64,000 nt of DNA from Haemophilus parahaemolyticus. GTDB lineage: Bacteria; Pseudomonadota; Gammaproteobacteria; Enterobacterales; Pasteurellaceae. The stretch covers positions 757,723 to 821,722 of the forward strand of contig NZ_MUXY01000001.1 of NCBI RefSeq assembly GCF_002015035.1. The letters are read 5' to 3'. Below, one piece after another: positions 21,730 through 59,551 of this stretch. The notes below the pieces were generated by a model that was not told the DNA's origin, ran no database searches, and saw only the letters and a program-made list of their open reading frames with translations. The translations under genes and the position numbers were made by a program. The stretch's first letter is position 1. The number at the start of each line of letters is the position of its first letter.

Positions 21730-23802
21730 CTAGGCTTTCGCTACCGCCCTAATCGTTGATTCATCCAGCTCGGCATCAAACGCTTCACGTAATAATTTCA
21801 ACTTAGCATCATTCAGCAAGGCATTTCTTGCTTCTTGGGTTAATCCCTCAAAAATAGCACGGCGAATTTCAAGCGGAGTTTTGCGTTCGGGATTATCGGC
21901 AATAGTGAGTTGATAAGTAAGCTCTTTTCCCGATAACGCATCAGCTAAACTTTGGCGTGCTTCTGGACTATCTAAATGTGCCATATTCGGTTTTAGCACT
22001 AAATGAAGCTCATGATCTTGCTTTTCTGCCAAGTAGCTATTTAATGCAATCTGGCGAGTCAATCCGCCTAATTTAAGCTCATTAACCAATGCTGCCCATT
22101 CATCTTGTTGGCAAGCTAACTCAATGGTTTTCGCTACTAATTCGGGGGTGCGTTCTTGTAAAATAGCTTGCTTAATATCGGAGGGTTTTGCTGTTTCTTC
22201 TTGATTTTCTAATTCGGGGTTGAGCCAAGTCCAGCGATACTCTTCGTCATTGGTAACGACCGTTTGCTTCGATTGTTTTTCGTGCTCAAGTTCGGCTTTT
22301 TCGGTTTCCGCCAAATACATAAACCGCTCTTGCAAATTCATTTTTTTGGCAGGAGCATGGTTTGGCATTGAAGGCATTACGGCATTATTCGGCTTTTTTT
22401 TTTCGGTTTGTGCTAGCTGATCTTGTGTCTGTTGTAGCTGTTTTCTCGCTTGCATTGCCGCTAATGCAGGTGACATCGTAGGCACAGAGACAGGAGGCGT
22501 TTGAACTTGAGGAGCTACAGCTGGAGTGTAAACGGTTGGGTTTTCTTGCGGTTTTGCAAATTGTGGTGAATTTTCTACCGCCTGTGCTGTTGACTGAGCC
22601 ACTTTTTCACTTGGTACTAAGCGTGCTTTAAGCTGAGCGATATTTTGCTCAGACGATGTCGAAGGTCGGCTTGCAGGGGGTATGTTAACTGTTTGGGTTT
22701 GCACCTGCACACAGTTAATCTCTTCCACTCGTTTTGGGTGGAAGGCTAATGCACGCAAGAAAGTCATTTCCACGCCTGCACGAGGTTCTGGTGAGAATGG
22801 TAACTCTTTTTTGCCCATCAACATCATTTGATAGAAAAACTGCACATCTTCAGGTGCAATCTGTTTTGCTAACAAGTGCAATGGTGTTTCGTCAGTTTCA
22901 GGCGATTTAACCAATTGCAATAGAGCGATTTTATGCAAGGTCTCTGCTACATCACTTAATAATTGCGACCAATCGACGCCTTTTTCCGCTACTTGTTGAA
23001 TGATAGAAAGTATTTTTTCACCGTTGGCTTGTGAAAGTGCCATCACCAATTCAAGCGGTTGATGATCGTCAATCAAACCAAGCATTTGGCTGACTGCTTC
23101 AAGCGTAATATTGGCATTGCTGACTGCAATCGCTTGGTCTGTCAAACTTAAAGAATCACGAATACTGCCTTGAGCAGCTTTGGCTAATTTCTCAACGGCA
23201 GGCAGTTCGTAAGGGATGTTTTCTTGTTTTAAAATAAACTCAAGATGATCAGCGATTTGATGCTGATCTAATGCACGCAAATGGAATTGCATACAACGTG
23301 ATAAGATCGTAATCGGCAATTTTTGCGGATCTGTCGTCGCTAACAAGAATTTGACATATTCAGGCGGTTCTTCCAACGTTTTCAATAATGCGTTGAAACT
23401 ATGACGAGAAAGCATATGCACTTCGTCAATCAAATAAACTTTAAACCGCCCAACGGTTGGCTTATATTGCACGTTATCAAGTAGTTCGCGGGTGTCTTCC
23501 ACTTTGGTGCGAGAGGCTGCATCGATCTCAATTAAGTCAATAAAACGCCCTTCTTCAATCGCTTTACAGTTCGCACACTCGCCACAAGGTGTTGCACTAA
23601 TGCCCGTTTCACAGTTTAATCCTTTCGCAAAAAGACGCGCAATTGAGGTTTTACCCACCCCGCGCGTGCCAGAGAAAAGATAAGCGTGGTGCAGGCGATT
23701 TTCACGTAATCCATTTTCTAATGCGGATAAAACGTGTTGTTGCCCCACCACTTCGGAAAAACGTTGCGGACGCCATTTACGTGCTAAAACTTGATAACTC
23801 AT
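21730..23802 (-). CDS. dnaX: DNA polymerase III subunits tau and gamma
   Basis: The clamp-loader ATPase of the replicative polymerase, 690 residues as tau. Walker A is GTRGVGKTSI near residue 45, followed by a four-cysteine zinc module (C-x8-C-x2-C-x2-C) and the SRC sensor (ILSRCMQF). Conserved domains I-III are followed by a Pro/Gln-rich linker and the tau-specific C-terminal domains IV-V. In the linker an A10 run (22394-22403 on the + strand as T10) encodes EKKK. A -1 slip there gives codons GCC GAA TAA, ending a gamma-like product of 472 residues. Confidence 0.97.
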   Translation of the reverse strand: MSYQVLARKWRPQRFSEVVGQQHVLSALENGLRENRLHHAYLFSGTRGVGKTSIARLFAKGLNCETGISATPCGECANCKAIEEGRFIDLIEIDAASRTKVEDTRELLDNVQYKPTVGRFKVYLIDEVHMLSRHSFNALLKTLEEPPEYVKFLLATTDPQKLPITILSRCMQFHLRALDQHQIADHLEFILKQENIPYELPAVEKLAKAAQGSIRDSLSLTDQAIAVSNANITLEAVSQMLGLIDDHQPLELVMALSQANGEKILSIIQQVAEKGVDWSQLLSDVAETLHKIALLQLVKSPETDETPLHLLAKQIAPEDVQFFYQMMLMGKKELPFSPEPRAGVEMTFLRALAFHPKRVEEINCVQVQTQTVNIPPASRPSTSSEQNIAQLKARLVPSEKVAQSTAQAVENSPQFAKPQENPTVYTPAVAPQVQTPPVSVPTMSPALAAMQARKQLQQTQDQLAQTEKKKPNNAVMPSMPNHAPAKKMNLQERFMYLAETEKAELEHEKQSKQTVVTNDEEYRWTWLNPELENQEETAKPSDIKQAILQERTPELVAKTIELACQQDEWAALVNELKLGGLTRQIALNSYLAEKQDHELHLVLKPNMAHLDSPEARQSLADALSGKELTYQLTIADNPERKTPLEIRRAIFEGLTQEARNALLNDAKLKLLREAFDAELDESTIRAVAKA
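22385..22404 (-). promoter_or_regulatory. dnaX -1 frameshift site and gamma stop codon
   Basis: The mRNA reads GAA AAA AAA AAG CCG, containing the A-AAA-AAG slippery heptamer at codons 467-470. In the -1 frame the next codons are GCC, GAA and TAA (22385-22387). E. coli dnaX makes gamma by the same logic, with A-AAA-AAG and a -1 stop two codons later. Confidence 0.8.
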
Positions 23803-26298: not shown

Positions 26299-29200
26299 TT
26301 AAGCTGAAAGCTCATCCGCAATCTCTTCCGCTTGCTTCAACACATACTCCACTGCACCTTCTGCCTGATCAGGTGGATATTTATATTTTTGTAAGGCACG
26401 TCGAACGAGTAATCTAATTCTTGCCCGCACGGCTTCTTTGTGTTGCCAATCAATACTGACTGAGCGGCGTAAAATATCGGTAATCTCTTTAGCGAGTTTA
26501 GAAAGCACTTCATCGTTCATCAATTCTTTGGCGCTCTCATTTTGAGAAAGTGCATCGTAAAACGCTAATTCTGCCGTGCTTAAACCGAGTTTTTCGCCTC
26601 GCGATAAGCGTTCGGAGAAATCCCGCCCCATCTGCACAAGTGCATCAAGAATTTCCACCACGCTCAAGTTGTGATTGTGATATTGCGTGAGAGCTTCTTG
26701 CAAACGTTGCTCAAAATCTTTTTGTGCGGTCAGATTTCTGCTGGCTTTGGCTTTAATTTCCTGCTTTAAATAACGCTCCATCGCCAACACCCACAGGCTT
26801 TTAGTCTCGCTGTTTTTGATCGCTTGCAAAAATTCGTCGGAAAGCAAATTAATCTGAGTTTGTTCTTTGCCCAACAAATCAAATAAATCAATGGTACCTT
26901 CAGATATAATACTTTGATTGATTAATGCTTTAAGCTGAATTAAGCGTTCCGTTGTCCCTTTTCCGTTTTGTTCACGTTTGGCAAGCACAGCACGCACCGC
27001 ATCATAAAAAGCCACTTCTTGACTATATGGTTCGATTTCAGGTAATGCCCCGCATAAAGCGTAACCTTTTTTCAAGCTTCCTGCCGTTTTCAAAAAGGCT
27101 TTTTTACGTGGCTCAATATCATCTGCATTATGCCAATGTTGATCGTATGCTTTGCCTTCATTAGGCAGTTGGTCGAGCGTAGCAATATGGTTTGCTGCTG
27201 TCGCTATAGCTTTTAGCAACAATGCAGGTTCTTGTTCAGAAATTGCGATCTGAACATCAAATGCTTCGCCTTCAATTGGTATCGCAAACAAAATTCGGAT
27301 AAATTCAAGCTGTTCTTTCATTTTAAAGAACACGCTTTGCACATCTTCCGCTAATTGCCCTTTGCCGGTAGAGTTGGTGTATTGCTGTGTGGCTGCTCGT
27401 AATTCTTCTGCTAAACCAACATAATCCACGATAAGTCCACCGTTTTCGCGACTTTTGTTAGCGAATACACGGTTTACTCGTGCGATGGCTTGCATTAGGT
27501 TATGCCCCTTCATTGGCTTATCAAGATACATAGTGTTACAGCACGGTGCATCAAAGCCCGTCAGCCACATATCGCGCACAATCACCACTTTCAGCGGATC
27601 GTTCGGGTCTTTAAAACGGCGTTCCAGCGTTTGTTTTTCTTGTTTACTGTAAACGTGTTTCTGCATTTCCGGCGCATCGGAAGCAGAACCCGTCATCACA
27701 ATTTTAATCGCCCCTTCGTTAATATTGTCCGAATGCCATTCAGGACGCAGTTTGATGATTTCATTGTATAAGTCCACGCAAATCTGACGGCTGGAAACCA
27801 CCATCATCGCTTTGCTGTCCACCACTTCATTGCGTTTTGCAAAATGTTGCACAAAATCGACCGCTAAATCGTGCAATCGTGCTTCCGAACCAAGCAATTT
27901 TTCTCGCAAGCGTAATTTCGGGTTTTCTTCGCCTTCCAGCAGTTCATCAATTTCTGCAAATAATTCATCGTGATTAGCATTCTCCGCCAGCTTGATTTGG
28001 CGAGCTTCGTAAATAATCGGCACGGTTGCACCATCTTCCACCGCATCTTGCAAATCGTAAATAGATACATACTGACCGAAAACATCTTGTGTATCGCGAT
28101 CTTCAAGGCTAATTGGCGTACCCGTGAAGCCAATAAACGAAGCATTAGGCAGCGCATCGCGCAAATGGCGAGCATAACCTGCCTGAAATTTGCCGTTATG
28201 CAGCTTTTGTGTAAAGCCATATTGGCTGCGGTGTGCCTCATCGCTGATCACAATAATATTGCTGCGTTCATTTAACACAGGGAAGCGGCTTTCTTCTTCA
28301 TTTAGAGCGAATTTTTGAATGGTGGTAAAAAACACGCCGCCCACTTCATTTTGTGCGAGCAGTTGGCGCAGTTGTTCGCGATCTTCCACTTGTTGCGGTG
28401 TTTGTTTGATTAAATCTTTACCCGAAGAAAAAGTTTGGAACAACTGACCGTCCAAATCGTTGCGGTCGGTAACTACCACAATCGTCGGATTTTTCAATTC
28501 AGGTTGGGAGAGCAATTTGCCAGCATAAAACAGCATTGAAATGGATTTGCCCGAACCCTGCGTATGCCACATCACGCCAATGCGTTTATCGCCTTGCTCG
28601 CTTGTGGCAAAAATTGTGGATTCTACGGCTTCATTCACACCGTAATACTGATGATACGCCGCGATTTTCTTGATTAACGCTCCATTAGAACCGCGTTCAA
28701 ACAGCACAAAATAACGTACATAATCCAGCAGTTTTTGCGGTGTCATCAAGCCGTTTAATAGATTTTGCAATTCATCGCCAAAATCCAACCGCTTACTTTT
28801 TGCCTTTTCATCCACGACTTTCCACGGCGTAAAGCGTTGGAAATCTGCCGAAAGCGAACCCAAACGGGCAGCAATGCCGTCTGAAATAATTAAAGCTTGG
28901 TTGTAAACAAACAGCTCGGCAATTTCATCTTTATAGGTTTCAAACTGATTAAACGCCTGCAACAAATCCGCCGATTCACGCAGCGGATTTTTGAGCTCAA
29001 ATACCACCAACGGTAAGCCATTTACAAAGCCGATAATATCAGGAATCCGCTTGCTCCCTTTACGGCTGCGGATTTCCAATTGATTGACGGCGACAAAACG
29101 GTTGTTTCCCCAATGCTCGAAATCCACCAAACGCGCCATCTCGATTTTTTGCTCACCATTTAGCGTATATTCCACCCGTACACCATCACGCAACAGCTTA

Positions 29201-29463
29201 TAAAACGCCTGATTCCGTACCACCAAATCACCAATATCGCTTTTTGTCGCGGATTTCACTACAGAATCAACCGCACTTTCCGGCAGTTTTGGGTTGAGTT
29301 TACGCACTGCCGCACGCAGTTGTTCAATAAAGATTACACCGCCCAGATCGCCACGGGCAAACTCGCCTTCATGAACAGGCAAATCTTTACCGTAGCGATA
29401 TTCCCAACCGAGGGATTGCAGGCGTTGAAGGGTGAGTTGTTCGATGTCGTTTTCGTTGAGCAT
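26299..29463 (-). CDS. hsdR: Type I restriction enzyme, R (endonuclease/translocase) subunit
   Basis: A 1054-residue HsdR. The N-terminal PD-(D/E)xK nuclease has D142 (PDIIGF) and E156-x-K158 (VVFELKN). The SF2 translocase has Walker A GSGKS at 303-307 and DEAH at 408-411. Motif VI-type residues are in MQAIARVNR and a helical C-terminal domain follows. The start 29463 follows AAAGGAACAC. It is the last gene of the locus, separated from the upstream FRG gene by 321 nt containing a MITE-like repeat, so it may have its own promoter. Intact, with no visible lesions. Confidence 0.95.
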   Translation of the reverse strand: MLNENDIEQLTLQRLQSLGWEYRYGKDLPVHEGEFARGDLGGVIFIEQLRAAVRKLNPKLPESAVDSVVKSATKSDIGDLVVRNQAFYKLLRDGVRVEYTLNGEQKIEMARLVDFEHWGNNRFVAVNQLEIRSRKGSKRIPDIIGFVNGLPLVVFELKNPLRESADLLQAFNQFETYKDEIAELFVYNQALIISDGIAARLGSLSADFQRFTPWKVVDEKAKSKRLDFGDELQNLLNGLMTPQKLLDYVRYFVLFERGSNGALIKKIAAYHQYYGVNEAVESTIFATSEQGDKRIGVMWHTQGSGKSISMLFYAGKLLSQPELKNPTIVVVTDRNDLDGQLFQTFSSGKDLIKQTPQQVEDREQLRQLLAQNEVGGVFFTTIQKFALNEEESRFPVLNERSNIIVISDEAHRSQYGFTQKLHNGKFQAGYARHLRDALPNASFIGFTGTPISLEDRDTQDVFGQYVSIYDLQDAVEDGATVPIIYEARQIKLAENANHDELFAEIDELLEGEENPKLRLREKLLGSEARLHDLAVDFVQHFAKRNEVVDSKAMMVVSSRQICVDLYNEIIKLRPEWHSDNINEGAIKIVMTGSASDAPEMQKHVYSKQEKQTLERRFKDPNDPLKVVIVRDMWLTGFDAPCCNTMYLDKPMKGHNLMQAIARVNRVFANKSRENGGLIVDYVGLAEELRAATQQYTNSTGKGQLAEDVQSVFFKMKEQLEFIRILFAIPIEGEAFDVQIAISEQEPALLLKAIATAANHIATLDQLPNEGKAYDQHWHNADDIEPRKKAFLKTAGSLKKGYALCGALPEIEPYSQEVAFYDAVRAVLAKREQNGKGTTERLIQLKALINQSIISEGTIDLFDLLGKEQTQINLLSDEFLQAIKNSETKSLWVLAMERYLKQEIKAKASRNLTAQKDFEQRLQEALTQYHNHNLSVVEILDALVQMGRDFSERLSRGEKLGLSTAELAFYDALSQNESAKELMNDEVLSKLAKEITDILRRSVSIDWQHKEAVRARIRLLVRRALQKYKYPPDQAEGAVEYVLKQAEEIADELSA

Positions 29464-29784: not shown

Positions 29785-30633
29785 CTATTCTTCCAAGTCT
29801 TGATATTCTAAATTAATCTCTGCAATCGCATTATCAATACCAATTTCACAAAGTTTTATTTTTCCTAATAAATCAGGATAAATTGTTGAAGCATCAATAT
29901 TAATTGAGGCAAGATAAGCTAAAACATCTTTTCTTAACTTACTGGAAATTAACATTTTACTTAATCTGTGAAAAACATGTCCATTGCCAAAATTTGTGTT
30001 CAGTTTGGCGATATCTTCAAGTTCAATCGATGATAATTTTGTAAAAACACCTTTTTGTGCATTAATCCGGTTTCCAATTTTAATTTCTGGCTCAATAATG
30101 AGTTTTTTACCAACATTAAAAAACTCATTTAATTCATAAATAACACGATATTGGTTTTCTTCCTGACTTTCAAAAGCAAAATAAAGTGCAACAAAGAAAG
30201 ATTTTGTCCAATCTAATAAAGGTGTTTTTAACTGATAATGTTGTGCAAATGCCCAAATATCATCATCTTTAAGATTACTTGGTAATAAAATATAACCATC
30301 AATACTTTGATTGAGAAGAATGCGTTTGCAATGCTCAAGATATTTTTCTTGCAGCCTTTCATAATCTTTTTCAATGTCAATTTGTTTACCAAACTTTTCT
30401 AAATATCGCTCTAAAGTTGATTGTAAGCGATAATCTTCACGGCTATGCCCGCGATAATACCGAGCGTAAATAGTATAACTTTCACTTGTTGATGGTATGC
30501 TTTTGTATATATCAGGCGTTTCTTCATCAAATATATAAGAGTGAGCAGATAAAAGGGATTTTAATTCATCTAATGTATTGATTTCTGCTAAAACAGGGAC
30601 TTTATCTTTTCCTATAAATTTAAAATCTTCCAT
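29785..30633 (-). CDS. FRG-domain protein within the type I RM operon
   Basis: A 282-residue protein of the FRG-domain family, whose biochemical function is not established. The FRG motif appears as YYRGHSREDYRLQSTLERY (about 59-77), with Tyr replacing Phe. The second conserved block is AQHYQLKTPLLDWTKSFFVALYFAF (about 130-154, given here in two parts: AQHYQLKTPLLDWT and KSFFVALYFAF). There is no signal peptide or membrane span. The ATG lies one base after the hsdS stop and its ribosome binding site (GGAG) is inside the last hsdS codons, so it is coupled to hsdS. A role accompanying restriction or another defence function is inference from position only. Its AT-rich composition resembles the hsdS target domains. 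Confidence 0.8.
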   Translation of the reverse strand: MEDFKFIGKDKVPVLAEINTLDELKSLLSAHSYIFDEETPDIYKSIPSTSESYTIYARYYRGHSREDYRLQSTLERYLEKFGKQIDIEKDYERLQEKYLEHCKRILLNQSIDGYILLPSNLKDDDIWAFAQHYQLKTPLLDWTKSFFVALYFAFESQEENQYRVIYELNEFFNVGKKLIIEPEIKIGNRINAQKGVFTKLSSIELEDIAKLNTNFGNGHVFHRLSKMLISSKLRKDVLAYLASINIDASTIYPDLLGKIKLCEIGIDNAIAEINLEYQDLEE

Positions 30634-30634
30634 T

Positions 30635-32008
30635 TTAAACTTCTCCGTTTAATAACTTAGGTAGTAATAAATCTCTTTTCCTCTCTAGATTATTGTTTTC
30701 TTTTAGGTTTTCTATTGTTTTGTTCATAATTGGTTTAGCTAATAAATTAAATTTTTTCAAAATTACTTTATTAGGTATTAGAACGGGTGTTTCTTCAATT
30801 ATTTTCTTACTAATGTTTTGCTGGGCGGAGCCACTAGCTTGATTTGCGAAGTATTTTTCTTGCAGCTGTAAGTGATAGTAATTAAAAAAAGTATATTCTT
30901 CTTTAGGTATTATTGCGCATACAGCTTGGTTTGTAGATGTTTCAAATCCTGAAAATGCACACTTCCCAGCTGTAGGAGAGGCATAAATAGCGACTAATGT
31001 TGAATATGGAGGAATAAGTTTTGCTGCAGAACCTTTTAAACCTAAATCTGTAATATATTCTTTAGATTGAACTAATACTTTGTTATTGCATACTTCGCCT
31101 GACGAAAGCCAAGATATATCTCCATTTTCCCAATACTCTAAATTTGATCTTTTAGGCGTTCCCCCGTTTTGAATTTTCAAACTGCATTCAGAGATAGTAC
31201 TTACCAGCCACCCCTTCGGCACCTCAACCCCATCAATCTCCACCATCTCACACGGAAACGCTTTGGCGGTTTTGGATAGTTCGGCGTAGCGGTCAGGCTG
31301 TGTTTGTGAAAGTGCGGTCAATTCTTCAGGTGTTTTTCCGCTGATTGCCTGCATAGCGGCAAGTTCTGCTTGTTCAAGGCTAAGACCGTCTGAAAGGGCT
31401 TGGACTTTGGCACGTACAGGATCAAAATCGACAAACCAGCTTTTAAACAGGGCTTGGGCGATTTGTTCCAAGGTTTGGTTGATTTGGGTATTAAGTTCGA
31501 TTTTGTCATCTAATGATCTTAATTTTTTAGATATATTTATTTGTAAGTCCAAATTTGGAATATCTAATTCTACTTTCTTAAAATCTTTTAGAACAATTCT
31601 CGGAACTCCAGAGCCTGATACATAGTTATTTAATATGTCTTCTTTTACTCTATTATTTTTCAAAGAGTAAACTAAAAAATCAGGATAAACTATTTCTTTA
31701 TTAGGTCTCAGAATTGCAATTGAAGATAGTAAAACGATATTATCTGCATTTCTTACTCTAAAGATATGCTTCATAACAGAACCATCTTTAGCTATAAGTA
31801 TGTCATCAACTTCTGGTTTACAGCCTTGTTTTACAAGTTTTTCAAAATCATTTTTAGAAATATGTTTTGCTTTTGATAAATCAAATCCAAATTCAGTCAT
31901 ATCTTTAACTGAAACCATCGGATAACCAGTTGGGTCTTCTTTAGGTGATTGATGAGACCCATCGGTAATTTTTTTGCATATTTGATCCAATGTGTATAAA
32001 TTATTCAT
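30635..32008 (-). CDS. hsdS: Type I restriction-modification specificity subunit
   Basis: A 457-residue HsdS that sets the DNA sequence read by the complex. Target recognition domain 1 spans about residues 1-160. A central conserved region follows (LDDKIELNTQINQTLEQIAQ, then FKSWFVDFDPVRAK). Target domain 2 (about 265-430) begins at GWLVSTISECSLKIQNGGTP, and the C-terminal conserved helix is NNLERKRDLLLPKLLNGEV. The recognition domains are visibly more AT-rich than the central region, as expected for recombining modules. It overlaps hsdM by 8 nt (32001-32008), so it is translated with it and should be affected by hsdM's frame. Confidence 0.94.
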   Translation of the reverse strand: MNNLYTLDQICKKITDGSHQSPKEDPTGYPMVSVKDMTEFGFDLSKAKHISKNDFEKLVKQGCKPEVDDILIAKDGSVMKHIFRVRNADNIVLLSSIAILRPNKEIVYPDFLVYSLKNNRVKEDILNNYVSGSGVPRIVLKDFKKVELDIPNLDLQINISKKLRSLDDKIELNTQINQTLEQIAQALFKSWFVDFDPVRAKVQALSDGLSLEQAELAAMQAISGKTPEELTALSQTQPDRYAELSKTAKAFPCEMVEIDGVEVPKGWLVSTISECSLKIQNGGTPKRSNLEYWENGDISWLSSGEVCNNKVLVQSKEYITDLGLKGSAAKLIPPYSTLVAIYASPTAGKCAFSGFETSTNQAVCAIIPKEEYTFFNYYHLQLQEKYFANQASGSAQQNISKKIIEETPVLIPNKVILKKFNLLAKPIMNKTIENLKENNNLERKRDLLLPKLLNGEV

Positions 32009-33706
32009 ACCCCAATCCCCCTAAATTCTTTTTAATCTCCGCTTCCAACTCTGCACTTTTCGCAAACTGCTCCTTCAAAAGAGCGGTCAGATTTTGCATT
32101 TTTTCTGCAAATGGTACGCCGTCGTCTTCTTGTTCTGCGGTGCCAACGTAGCGCCCCGGTGTGAGGACGAAGTCGTTATCTTTAATTTCTTCTAAAGTAA
32201 CAGATTTGCAGAAAGCGGCTTGGTCTTCATAGCTGTCTGATTTTTGCCAAGCGTGGAGGGTGTCGGCAATTTTGGCGATATCGTCAGCGGTGAAATCACG
32301 CAATACACGGTCTTTCATATAGCCGATTTGGCGGGCGTCGATAAATAACACTTCGCCTTTGCGTTTTTTGTTGCGGTTTAAAAACCAAATACAGGCGGGG
32401 ATTTGGGTGTTGGTAAAGAGCTGGCCGGGTAGTGCAACCATACATTCGACCAAGTCGGCATTGATGATGGCTTTGCGGATTTCGCCTTCGTTATTGGTTT
32501 GGCTGCTCATGGAGCCGTTGGCAAGCAACAATGCCATTTTGCCGTTGGGCGAGAGGTGGTAAATCATGTGTTGCAGCCAAGCGAAGTTGGCATTGCCTTT
32601 AGGCGGCGTGCCGTATGTCCAACGTGGATCATCGGCAAGGGATTCGCTCCACCAATCGCTGATGTTGAAGGGTGGGTTTGCCATGATGAAATCCATCTTT
32701 TTGTCGATGTGTTGCGGCTGCGTGAAGCTGTCGGCGTTGTGTTTGCCGAAGTCGTAATCAATGCCGCGAATCGCCATGTTCATGGCGGCGAGTTTCCATG
32801 TGGTGGGGTTGAATTCTTGCCCGTAGATGGAAACGTTGTTGATGTTGCCTTGATGGGCGGCGATAAAGCGTTCGGTTTGCACGAAAAATCCGCCGCTGCC
32901 CATGGCTGGGTCATATACTCGTCCTGAATAAGGTTCGAGCATTTCGACAATCAGGGAAACAATGGATTTCGGCGTGAAATATTGCCCACCTCGTTTGCCT
33001 TCTGCTTGGGCAAAGCGACCGAGGAAGTATTCGTAAACGTGGCCGAGAATGTCTTTTGCACCTAAATGCACGGGCTCGCCGTTGTAAGTCGGGCGGGTAA
33101 AGTTGGTATCGGAGAAGAGGATAATCAGCCCACGCAGGGTGTCTTCGTTTACCGCATAGCCGCTGATGCGTTGGAGGACGCCTTTGAGTTTTTCGTTGTC
33201 TTTTTCAATAGCATCAAAGGCATCGTCAATCAGTTTGGCGACGCCAGAAAATTTCCCACGCTCCTTTCCTATATTCCAAGGCAATTCTGCCCCAGTGTTG
33301 AGAATAGAGACTTCTTGTAAGGCTTGCCAACGGGCTGAAGCTGGCACCCAAAATACGTTATCCGCGGTGTAATAATCACGGTTTTCTAGTTCTGCAGTTA
33401 AGGCTTCTTGATACTCTTCTTCAGTATCAAAAAAAGTGCGGTCAAGATAGAGGGGGTTTTCCGCATCGGAGAGTTCTGCCTGAATTTTTTCCTGTTGATG
33501 GGTGAAATTATCAGAAATGTATTTTAAAAAGATAAGACCAAGAACGATATGTTTATAGTTAGCGGCATCAAGTTGTTGACGGAGTTTATCAGCAGATGAC
33601 CAGAGTTTTTCGTCTAATTCATTGAGAAAAGCCTGAACGGTTAAATTTTCAGCAAGATTGACGATTGACGATTGACGATTGACGATTGACGATTGACGAT
33701 TGACAT
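32001..33706 (-). CDS. hsdM: Type I RM methyltransferase subunit, phase-variable and currently out of frame
   Basis: The N6-adenine methyltransferase subunit. The AdoMet motif DPAMGSGG and the catalytic NPPF (MANPPFNISDWW) are intact, and the HsdM N-terminal domain (TVQAFLNELDEKLWSSADKL, KHIVLGLIFLKYISDNF) is encoded up to 33662. The only ATG with a ribosome binding site (AAAGG) is at 33704-33706, just before seven copies of a 7-bp repeat. In the present sequence that ATG reads 21 codons to TAA at 33641-33643, out of frame with the body. In the body's frame there is no ATG, GTG or TTG between the upstream TAG and the GTG at 33347. Five or eight repeats would yield about 563 or 570 residues. 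Confidence 0.9.
33656..33704. repeat. Seven perfect tandem copies of GATTGAC in the hsdM start region
   Basis: 49 bp of uninterrupted GATTGAC (GTCAATC on the coding strand). The first coding-strand base is the G of the ATG. Seven is not a multiple of three, so each gain or loss shifts the frame; the repeat itself is open in all frames used. A hallmark of slipped-strand phase variation. Confidence 0.97.
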
Positions 33707-33742
33707 TATACTAAACCTTTGAATAAAAAAGTAAAGAAAAAC
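33705..33742 (-). promoter_or_regulatory. Possible hsdM promoter or ribosome binding region
   Basis: On the minus strand TTTACT, 18 nt and TATAAT (33705-33710) resemble a -35/-10 pair, with the -10 box overlapping the start codon. AAAGG upstream of the ATG is a good ribosome binding site if transcription starts farther up. Both readings are possible. Confidence 0.35.
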
Positions 33743-33837: not shown

Positions 33838-34926
33838 TTATGCGTTCTCTTTTGCAAATTTATCCATAAATGCAATTAAGGCATCTACACCTTCAATTGG
33901 CATTGCGTTGTAAATAGAAGCACGCATACCGCCTAATACTTTATGTCCTTTTAATGCTTGTAAACCACAAGCGGTCGCTTCAGCCACAAATTTTGCATTA
34001 AGCTCATCATTGTCAGTAGTGAAAGTTACGTTCATTACCGAACGGTTTTGTTCTGCAATGTAGTTACGATAGAACGTGCTTTGATTGAGGTAATCATATA
34101 GGCGTTTTGCTTTCGCTAAGTTGCGTTGTTCAACGGCTTCCAATCCGCCTGTGGCTAACAAGTGTTGGAATACCAGTGAACATAAATACCACGCAAAAGT
34201 AGGTGGTGTGTTGATCATTGAATCTGAGTTTGCTTGAATTTCATAGTTCCAGATAGAGGGGGTATCTTTGCGTGCTCTACCGATCAAATCTTCACGCACG
34301 ATGATAATGGTAATCCCCGCTGGCCCTAAGTTTTTCTGAGCACCTGCGTAAATCACACCGAATTTGCTGATGTCAATTTTGCTTGAAAGAATGTTAGATG
34401 ACATATCTGCCACTAACACCGCATTACCTACGTTTGGAATGTCTTTAATTTCCACACCTGAAATGGTTTCGTTGGTGCAATAATGCACATAATCATATTG
34501 TTCTGCGATGTCGCTGAAATCGGTACGATTGACTGAAATCACACCATTTTCATCCGTTTCAATGATAGAAACTTCATCTACTTCGCAGAAATTACGGGCT
34601 TCTTTCGCCGCTGTGCTCGACCAGTGACCACTATTTAAATAAAGTGCTTTGCCTTTTTCACCGATTAAATTCATCGGAATAGCGGCAAATTGTCCTCTCG
34701 CACCGCCTTGTAAAAAGAGGATTTTATAATTATCAGGGATGTGGAAAAGCTCACGGAAATCTTTATCTGCTTGAGTAATCAGCTCCATAAAGAGCTTACC
34801 GCGGTGGCTGACTTCCATTACCGAAGTGCCTTGCTCTTGCCAGTTTAAAAGTTCTTTTTGAGCCTGTTCTAACACCGCTTTCGGCATCATCGCAGGGCCT
34901 GCACTAAAATTGTAAACTTGTGTCAT
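33838..34926 (-). CDS. serC: Phosphoserine aminotransferase
   Basis: A PLP enzyme converting 3-phosphohydroxypyruvate to phosphoserine (serine synthesis) and serving pyridoxal phosphate synthesis. The PLP lysine is K198 in AGAQKNLGPAG, preceded by ADMSSNILS. The N-terminus NFSAGPAMMP and C-terminal GGMRASIYNAM match the family. 362 residues, the same as E. coli. The ATG at 34926 follows AAAGAGGCAAAC. Confidence 0.97.
   Translation of the reverse strand: MTQVYNFSAGPAMMPKAVLEQAQKELLNWQEQGTSVMEVSHRGKLFMELITQADKDFRELFHIPDNYKILFLQGGARGQFAAIPMNLIGEKGKALYLNSGHWSSTAAKEARNFCEVDEVSIIETDENGVISVNRTDFSDIAEQYDYVHYCTNETISGVEIKDIPNVGNAVLVADMSSNILSSKIDISKFGVIYAGAQKNLGPAGITIIIVREDLIGRARKDTPSIWNYEIQANSDSMINTPPTFAWYLCSLVFQHLLATGGLEAVEQRNLAKAKRLYDYLNQSTFYRNYIAEQNRSVMNVTFTTDNDELNAKFVAEATACGLQALKGHKVLGGMRASIYNAMPIEGVDALIAFMDKFAKENA

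Positions 34927-44616: not shown

Positions 44617-46044
<1,428 letters not shown>

Positions 46045-56894: not shown

Positions 56895-59551
<2,657 letters not shown>

Follow-up and report, generated by a model that had tools for sequence, protein, structure and literature searches.

A seven-base repeat tract at the 5' end of a type I hsdM gene in Haemophilus parahaemolyticus: very probably a frame switch captured OFF

The 64 kb stretch of Haemophilus parahaemolyticus DNA analyzed here (the window) carries genes for the M, S and R subunits of a type I restriction-modification system in one locus, together with their domains (Pfam; PADLOC MTase_I, Specificity_I and REase_I). All features of the locus are on the minus strand. 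The methyltransferase gene hsdM has a body of 550 amino acids plus a stop codon (32001..33653) with HsdM_N and N6_Mtase domains, the HsdM_N match spanning body residues 14-162. Its closest solved relative by sequence is 3khk (E 3e-213). The specificity gene hsdS (30635..32008; Methylase_S, PADLOC Specificity_I) is open and shares 8 bases with the end of hsdM. Also open is hsdR (26299..29463), which encodes HSDR_N and SWI2/SNF2 domains and a HindI-like C-terminal domain (T1RH-like_C; Pfam; PADLOC REase_I). Between hsdS and hsdR lies an ORF with an FRG domain (29785..30633), a PADLOC candidate PDC-S15 (E 1e-140), for which tblastn returned matches in 8 fetched loci; some of these are partial, and the match in L003 is full-length at 88%. 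Upstream of hsdM is serC (33838-34926), and the repeat tract described below lies between serC and the hsdM body. The window's SerC shows 93% identity to P0136 (uncultured Haemophilus), the closest named protein among the matches listed, 99% to P0121 and 86% to the SerC of genome G003 (Haemophilus sputorum); together with the names of the HsdM proteins P0027 (uncultured Haemophilus) and P0028 described below, this is in keeping with the H. parahaemolyticus group. In two other genomes of the family, at L118 (genome G014) and L123/L156 (G070), hsdM likewise follows serC in the same orientation, with gaps of ~0.3 and 1.8 kb; this arrangement, together with the CACAG-type unit at these loci, suggests a shared insertion site. 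The identity profile is high inside hsdM and low upstream and in hsdS, except in the middle of hsdS.

The 5' end of hsdM contains seven perfect tandem copies of GTCAATC (33656..33704; GATTGAC on the plus strand). The initiator ATG (33704..33706), assigned from the sequence and from relatives' proteins that start MSIVN..., contributes its G as the first base of the tract. A probable Shine-Dalgarno sequence, AAAGG (33716..33720), is located 9 bases 5' of this ATG, and by eye GGAG/AGGA-like sequences occur at a comparable distance in several relatives. With seven copies, the ATG opens an out-of-frame product of 21 codons that ends at TAA 33643-33641 (33641..33706), and the frame of the hsdM body is not reached. 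The body frame itself reads CTT GCT GAA AAT TTA from 33656 and is open; its last upstream stop is the TAG at 33713-33711, and between this TAG and the GTG at 33347 it contains no ATG, GTG or TTG. The tract does contain ATC codons, formal table-11 starts, in this frame, so "no start" holds for ATG, GTG and TTG only. An ORF read from the GTG (32001..33347) is truncated and lacks the first ~102 residues of the body, which is most of HsdM_N. The earlier note had described the seven copies, the ATG overlapping the first of them, the 21-codon frame and the missing start codon in the body frame, and a check of the sequence and of the upstream frame confirmed all of these, with every coordinate correct.

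This tract is the sole one in the window with at least four copies of a 4-9 nt unit. A tract of even four copies appeared in 3 of 200 mononucleotide shuffles, and the six adjacent unit pairs observed compare with 0.00 expected from 100 dinucleotide shuffles; a chance repeat was rejected on these two sets of shuffles. The unit length of seven is not a multiple of three and the tract lies within the 5' coding region, as in SSR-switched hsdM genes. Minor repeats elsewhere in the window are CAGC x3.2 (58697-58709), T10 (22394-22403) and A9 (46030-46038).

A protein search with the HsdM body scored 7999 candidates, 3730 of which passed, and the best 120 were taken. Among these best 120 of 3730, eight proteins carry a repeat peptide with the period SIVNRQS and an AENLTV linker: six decode to n=5 (P0001, P0027 and P0029-P0032), P0028 from Haemophilus parahaemolyticus decodes to n=8, and P0002 is a two-copy variant in which one linker residue is altered. 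The earlier note had predicted that hsdM would be ON with 2, 5 or 8 copies, and these proteins bear the prediction out; a protein list can reveal in-frame alleles only. The eight are 91-97% identical to the window's HsdM body and are thus homologous alleles, not clonal variants. Among such alleles copy number varies and sets the frame (five, eight and the two-copy variant versus seven in the window). Ten of the best 120 (of 3730) proteins have their N-terminus within the body, close to or at the position of GTG 33347, as expected from the way gene callers handle out-of-frame alleles; other causes are possible.

The N-termini of P0004, P0005, P0045 and P0046 show the period TNDKRQT, which implies a sister 7-base tract. 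P0045 (558 aa) and P0046 (Haemophilus paraphrohaemolyticus, 565 aa) both begin MTNDKRQTTNDK...; their two lengths are a single seven-residue period apart, and a sister tract seems to be present close by. HsdM predictions of 712-844 aa, as opposed to the usual ~550, were also observed (P0004, P0005, P0056, P0057, P0060, P0074 and P0085), perhaps the result of fusion to a neighbour or of extension into it.

We therefore consider it very probable that hsdM is controlled by a slipped-strand frame switch that is OFF at n=7. The proposal of a phase-variable hsdM captured OFF, made in the earlier note, is supported as the best reading, as the predicted ON copy numbers were found in database proteins. 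Slipped-strand mispairing in (GTCAATC)n would add or remove 7 bases per step, and one copy-number class in three (n = 2, 5, 8 and so on) would bring the ATG into the methyltransferase frame. At n=7, the stop after 21 codons would leave no full-length HsdM, and activity would presumably be lost. In type I enzymes HsdM is a required subunit of the methyltransferase, M2S, and also of the nuclease complex, R2M2S. Because HsdM belongs to both, modification and restriction would be OFF together at n=7, and this joint shutdown would protect the OFF cell from cutting its own unmethylated DNA. A cell switching ON would have an unmethylated genome and an intact hsdR. Slipped-strand mispairing mostly changes n by one. 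Gain of one unit (n=8) would turn the gene ON, and loss of one (n=6) would leave it OFF; as n=8 is one step from seven and n=5 is two, the change from 7 to 8 would be the likelier route to ON. The early stop may also lower HsdS via coupling across the hsdM/hsdS overlap.

The same trait was surveyed in 140 genomes of the family to which G003 belongs (Haemophilus sputorum, the source of locus L003), taken as Pasteurellaceae on the basis of neighbours' names. An HsdM relative at E <= 1e-100 is present in 69 of the 140 (loci L085-L153), and 68 of these 69 loci were counted, L152 being dropped since its N-terminus could not be placed. A tract was scored when at least 3 copies of a 4-9 base unit occur inside 250 bases around the N-terminus. 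By this definition 44 of the 68 family relatives have a tract, versus 1 of 852 control stretches from the same loci. Units of five bases are the most common (25 tracts), followed by seven (13) and four (6), and none is a multiple of three. No tract was found among 57 relatives judged by record title to be outside the family (from 80 loci kept of 443), for which the control stretches gave 7 of 2341. The N-terminus of P0119, from Moraxella, is repetitive, and the trait may accordingly extend beyond the family. The HsdM encoded in L002, a record titled Pseudomonas stutzeri NCTC11607, is 94% identical to that of the window and has a Rodentibacter-like 5' end; this is perhaps a mislabelled Pasteurellaceae genome.

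A three-copy tract is absent from 24 of the 68 family relatives. Six of these are divergent, at 52-63% identity (L143, L144, L146, L147, L151 and L153), several others keep one or two unit remnants, and in L112 and L115 the sequence starts at a contig end within a repeat. An ATG lies close to the tract in 41 of the 44 tract loci, and it is in frame in 10 of them and out of frame in 31; the in-frame share is below one in three, but the difference is not significant (p = 0.25). The other three of the 44 tract loci have no nearby ATG, and two of them (L109 and L117) start inside the tract at a contig end. Several loci with collapsed tracts are out of frame as well, for example L087, L088 and L100-L102. 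At least three adjacent copies of GTCAATC itself occur in 1 of the 140 family genomes, G032, which has no hsdM match at E <= 1e-100. There, seven tandem copies of the window's own unit (L165, 1501-1549) lie between ORFs of at least 100 aa, and this tract could be at the 5' end of a gene on the same strand (841-1233). A search of viral contigs for the window's repeat together with its right flank gave no match.

Other explanations of the OFF frame must be weighed against the slipped-strand switch. In the window sequence a full-length HsdM has no possible ATG, GTG or TTG start, which is what a decaying pseudogene with the repeat as a passive relic would look like. We rejected this on dN/dS and regard it as highly improbable: all 550 body codons are open, and compared with ten relatives the body has a dN/dS of 0.034-0.095 (dS 0.3-2.0), the strong purifying selection of a maintained gene, which argues that hsdM is switched, not dead. 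Against decay there are also the ON alleles among relatives, the retention of the tract in place by the 44 family relatives, and the open hsdS and hsdR; the last of these, with the low dN/dS, indicate that the OFF state is probably recent or transient. A different objection is that the count of seven copies could stem from faulty assembly or consensus calling, or could represent a single phase within a mixed population, with the sequenced strain largely ON. We think this unlikely. Two points speak against it: the 49 bases of the tract are under the usual read length, and relatives are more often OFF than ON (31 of 41 OFF). A mixed population gains some support from the mixed tract lengths described for a sequenced H. 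influenzae isolate (PMC6646836).

It is also conceivable that at n=7 HsdM is still made, starting at GTG 33347 or at an ATC of the tract, in which case the switch would alter how much of the enzyme there is, or which form, instead of turning it ON or OFF. The ATC codons are in the body frame and the GTG ORF is open. Nevertheless, no Shine-Dalgarno-like sequence is apparent within the repeat, the GTG form would be without most of HsdM_N, and a published hsdM with an out-of-frame tract is reported to leave its motif unmethylated (PMC4996451), so we hold residual synthesis to be decidedly unlikely. Least credible is that the tract tunes transcription or features of the mRNA, and not the reading frame. 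A TATAAT overlaps the ATG and an effect on promoter spacing can be imagined, but the sole nearby promoter-like match called (33866-33837) is no more than chance gives. Units in the relatives are stop-free and never multiples of three, for which reason a promoter-spacing switch was rejected, and predicted proteins that start MSIVN... imply translation through the tract. These two properties of the units do fit a translated frame switch.

The repeat unit of this frame switch is itself variable across the family. With rotations merged, the 44 tracts represent 15 units, and that of the window is a 16th. In no frame does any of the 16 units contain a stop codon, or an ATG, GTG or TTG; for random units of 40% GC, treated as independent, the probability that all would be stop-free is ~0.001. 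A tree of 45 HsdM bodies implies at least 19 changes of unit and at least 12 changes of unit length, where the count of unit changes comes from a quick tree of a gene that may recombine and takes no account of transferred 5' ends. The at least 19 unit changes indicate that switchability was retained while the repeat was replaced. On this tree, the row nearest to the window's HsdM is L085, 98% identical and with a CGAGA unit.

The flanks of the tracts were compared as well. By eye, L129 (unit ACAGC) and L130 (CAAT) have identical or near-identical bases 3' of the tract, whereas their units and 5' flanks differ. L131 and L135 likewise have the same or nearly the same bases after the tract, with a different unit and 5' flank (again by eye). 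The ten bases before the tract, TAGTATAATG, are common to the window and to L113, L116, L118, L119 and L121-L123, relatives that carry CACAG-type or AACAG units. The sequence after the tract, GCTGAAAATTTA, is common to the window, L116, L118, L119 and L121-L123, and L113 is off by one base. We lean slightly towards the view that the selected trait is switchability itself. The place of the tract would be held while the unit is repeatedly replaced, within this sample always by a stop-free one of 4, 5 or 7 bases, never 6 or 9, and the tract would act as a junction where 5' flanks are swapped and the body is kept.

The paper by Zaleski et al. 2005 is reportedly the primary source on the tract of H. 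influenzae HI1287/hsdM3. This gene (also NTHI1838) has a GACGA/CGAGA tract (PMC2651432, PMC6646836). Like the locus described here, it is a type I hsdM in which a 5' tract alters the frame and leads to a truncated product (PMC2651432, PMC6646836); it differs in its five-base unit of another sequence, compared with seven bases in the window, and in its 5' flank. P0016, from H. influenzae, has RRDET repeats, the peptide expected from a CGAGA tract, and is 95% identical to the window's body. The hsdM3 CGAGA tract is described as changing between paired patient isolates, and as mixed in one (PMC6646836). Transcripts of hsdM and hsdS are reported to be up in the two H. influenzae pairs whose hsdM3 was OFF (PMC6646836), and thus a translational OFF state need not silence the operon. 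Bibersteinia trehalosi M.Btr188III is a second type I hsdM with a 5' tract: by the account available, the strain with 27 ACAGC copies is in frame and its motif is methylated, and the strain with 17 copies is out of frame and unmethylated, so that only the in-frame strain methylates (PMC4996451). By analogy, M.Btr188III supports the step from an in-frame tract to methylation. It differs from the window in its 5-base unit and in its longer tract (27 or 17 copies versus seven; PMC4996451).

Type III mod genes (modA and others) follow the same logic, from a 5' tract to the frame and to methylation (see also PMC7394358), but belong to another enzyme type with its own target recognition and without HsdS. 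The type I systems with SSRs in the survey of REBASE (Atack et al. 2020, as cited in PMC7394358) are of the same class as the window's hsdM. SSRs in type III or type I systems are cited for Glaesserella parasuis and Mannheimia haemolytica, among other species (Atack et al. 2020, via PMC7394358 and PMC9577141), and an SSR screen of R-M genes in two G. parasuis strains has been published (PMC6211672). The parts of PMC12456177, PMC12707154 and PMC3339403 accessible to us hold nothing further on the GTCAATC unit. Our literature search, based on partial texts, returned no paper on this unit or on turnover of the unit in hsdM, and the survey of Atack et al. 2020 may include some of the loci. An SSR-switched type I hsdM is a kind already known, and the window locus is a fresh example of it.

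For phase-variable type I methylation, the locus contributes a further repeat unit and, going by the relatives that carry names, a further species group, H. parahaemolyticus and its kin. It also carries a warning, since gene callers may truncate hsdM near the GTG and so mask the OFF state. The broad persistence of the switch with swapped units is the part worth following: a frame switch is present in 44 of 68 family relatives, versus the 2% of hsdM genes with SSRs given for REBASE overall (Atack et al. 2020, as cited in the available parts of PMC7394358 and PMC9577141). This family-wide pattern offers natural replicates for two questions: how tracts originate, and whether evolvability is maintained by selection. 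If switchability itself is the selected trait, such loci could show how new switches arise.
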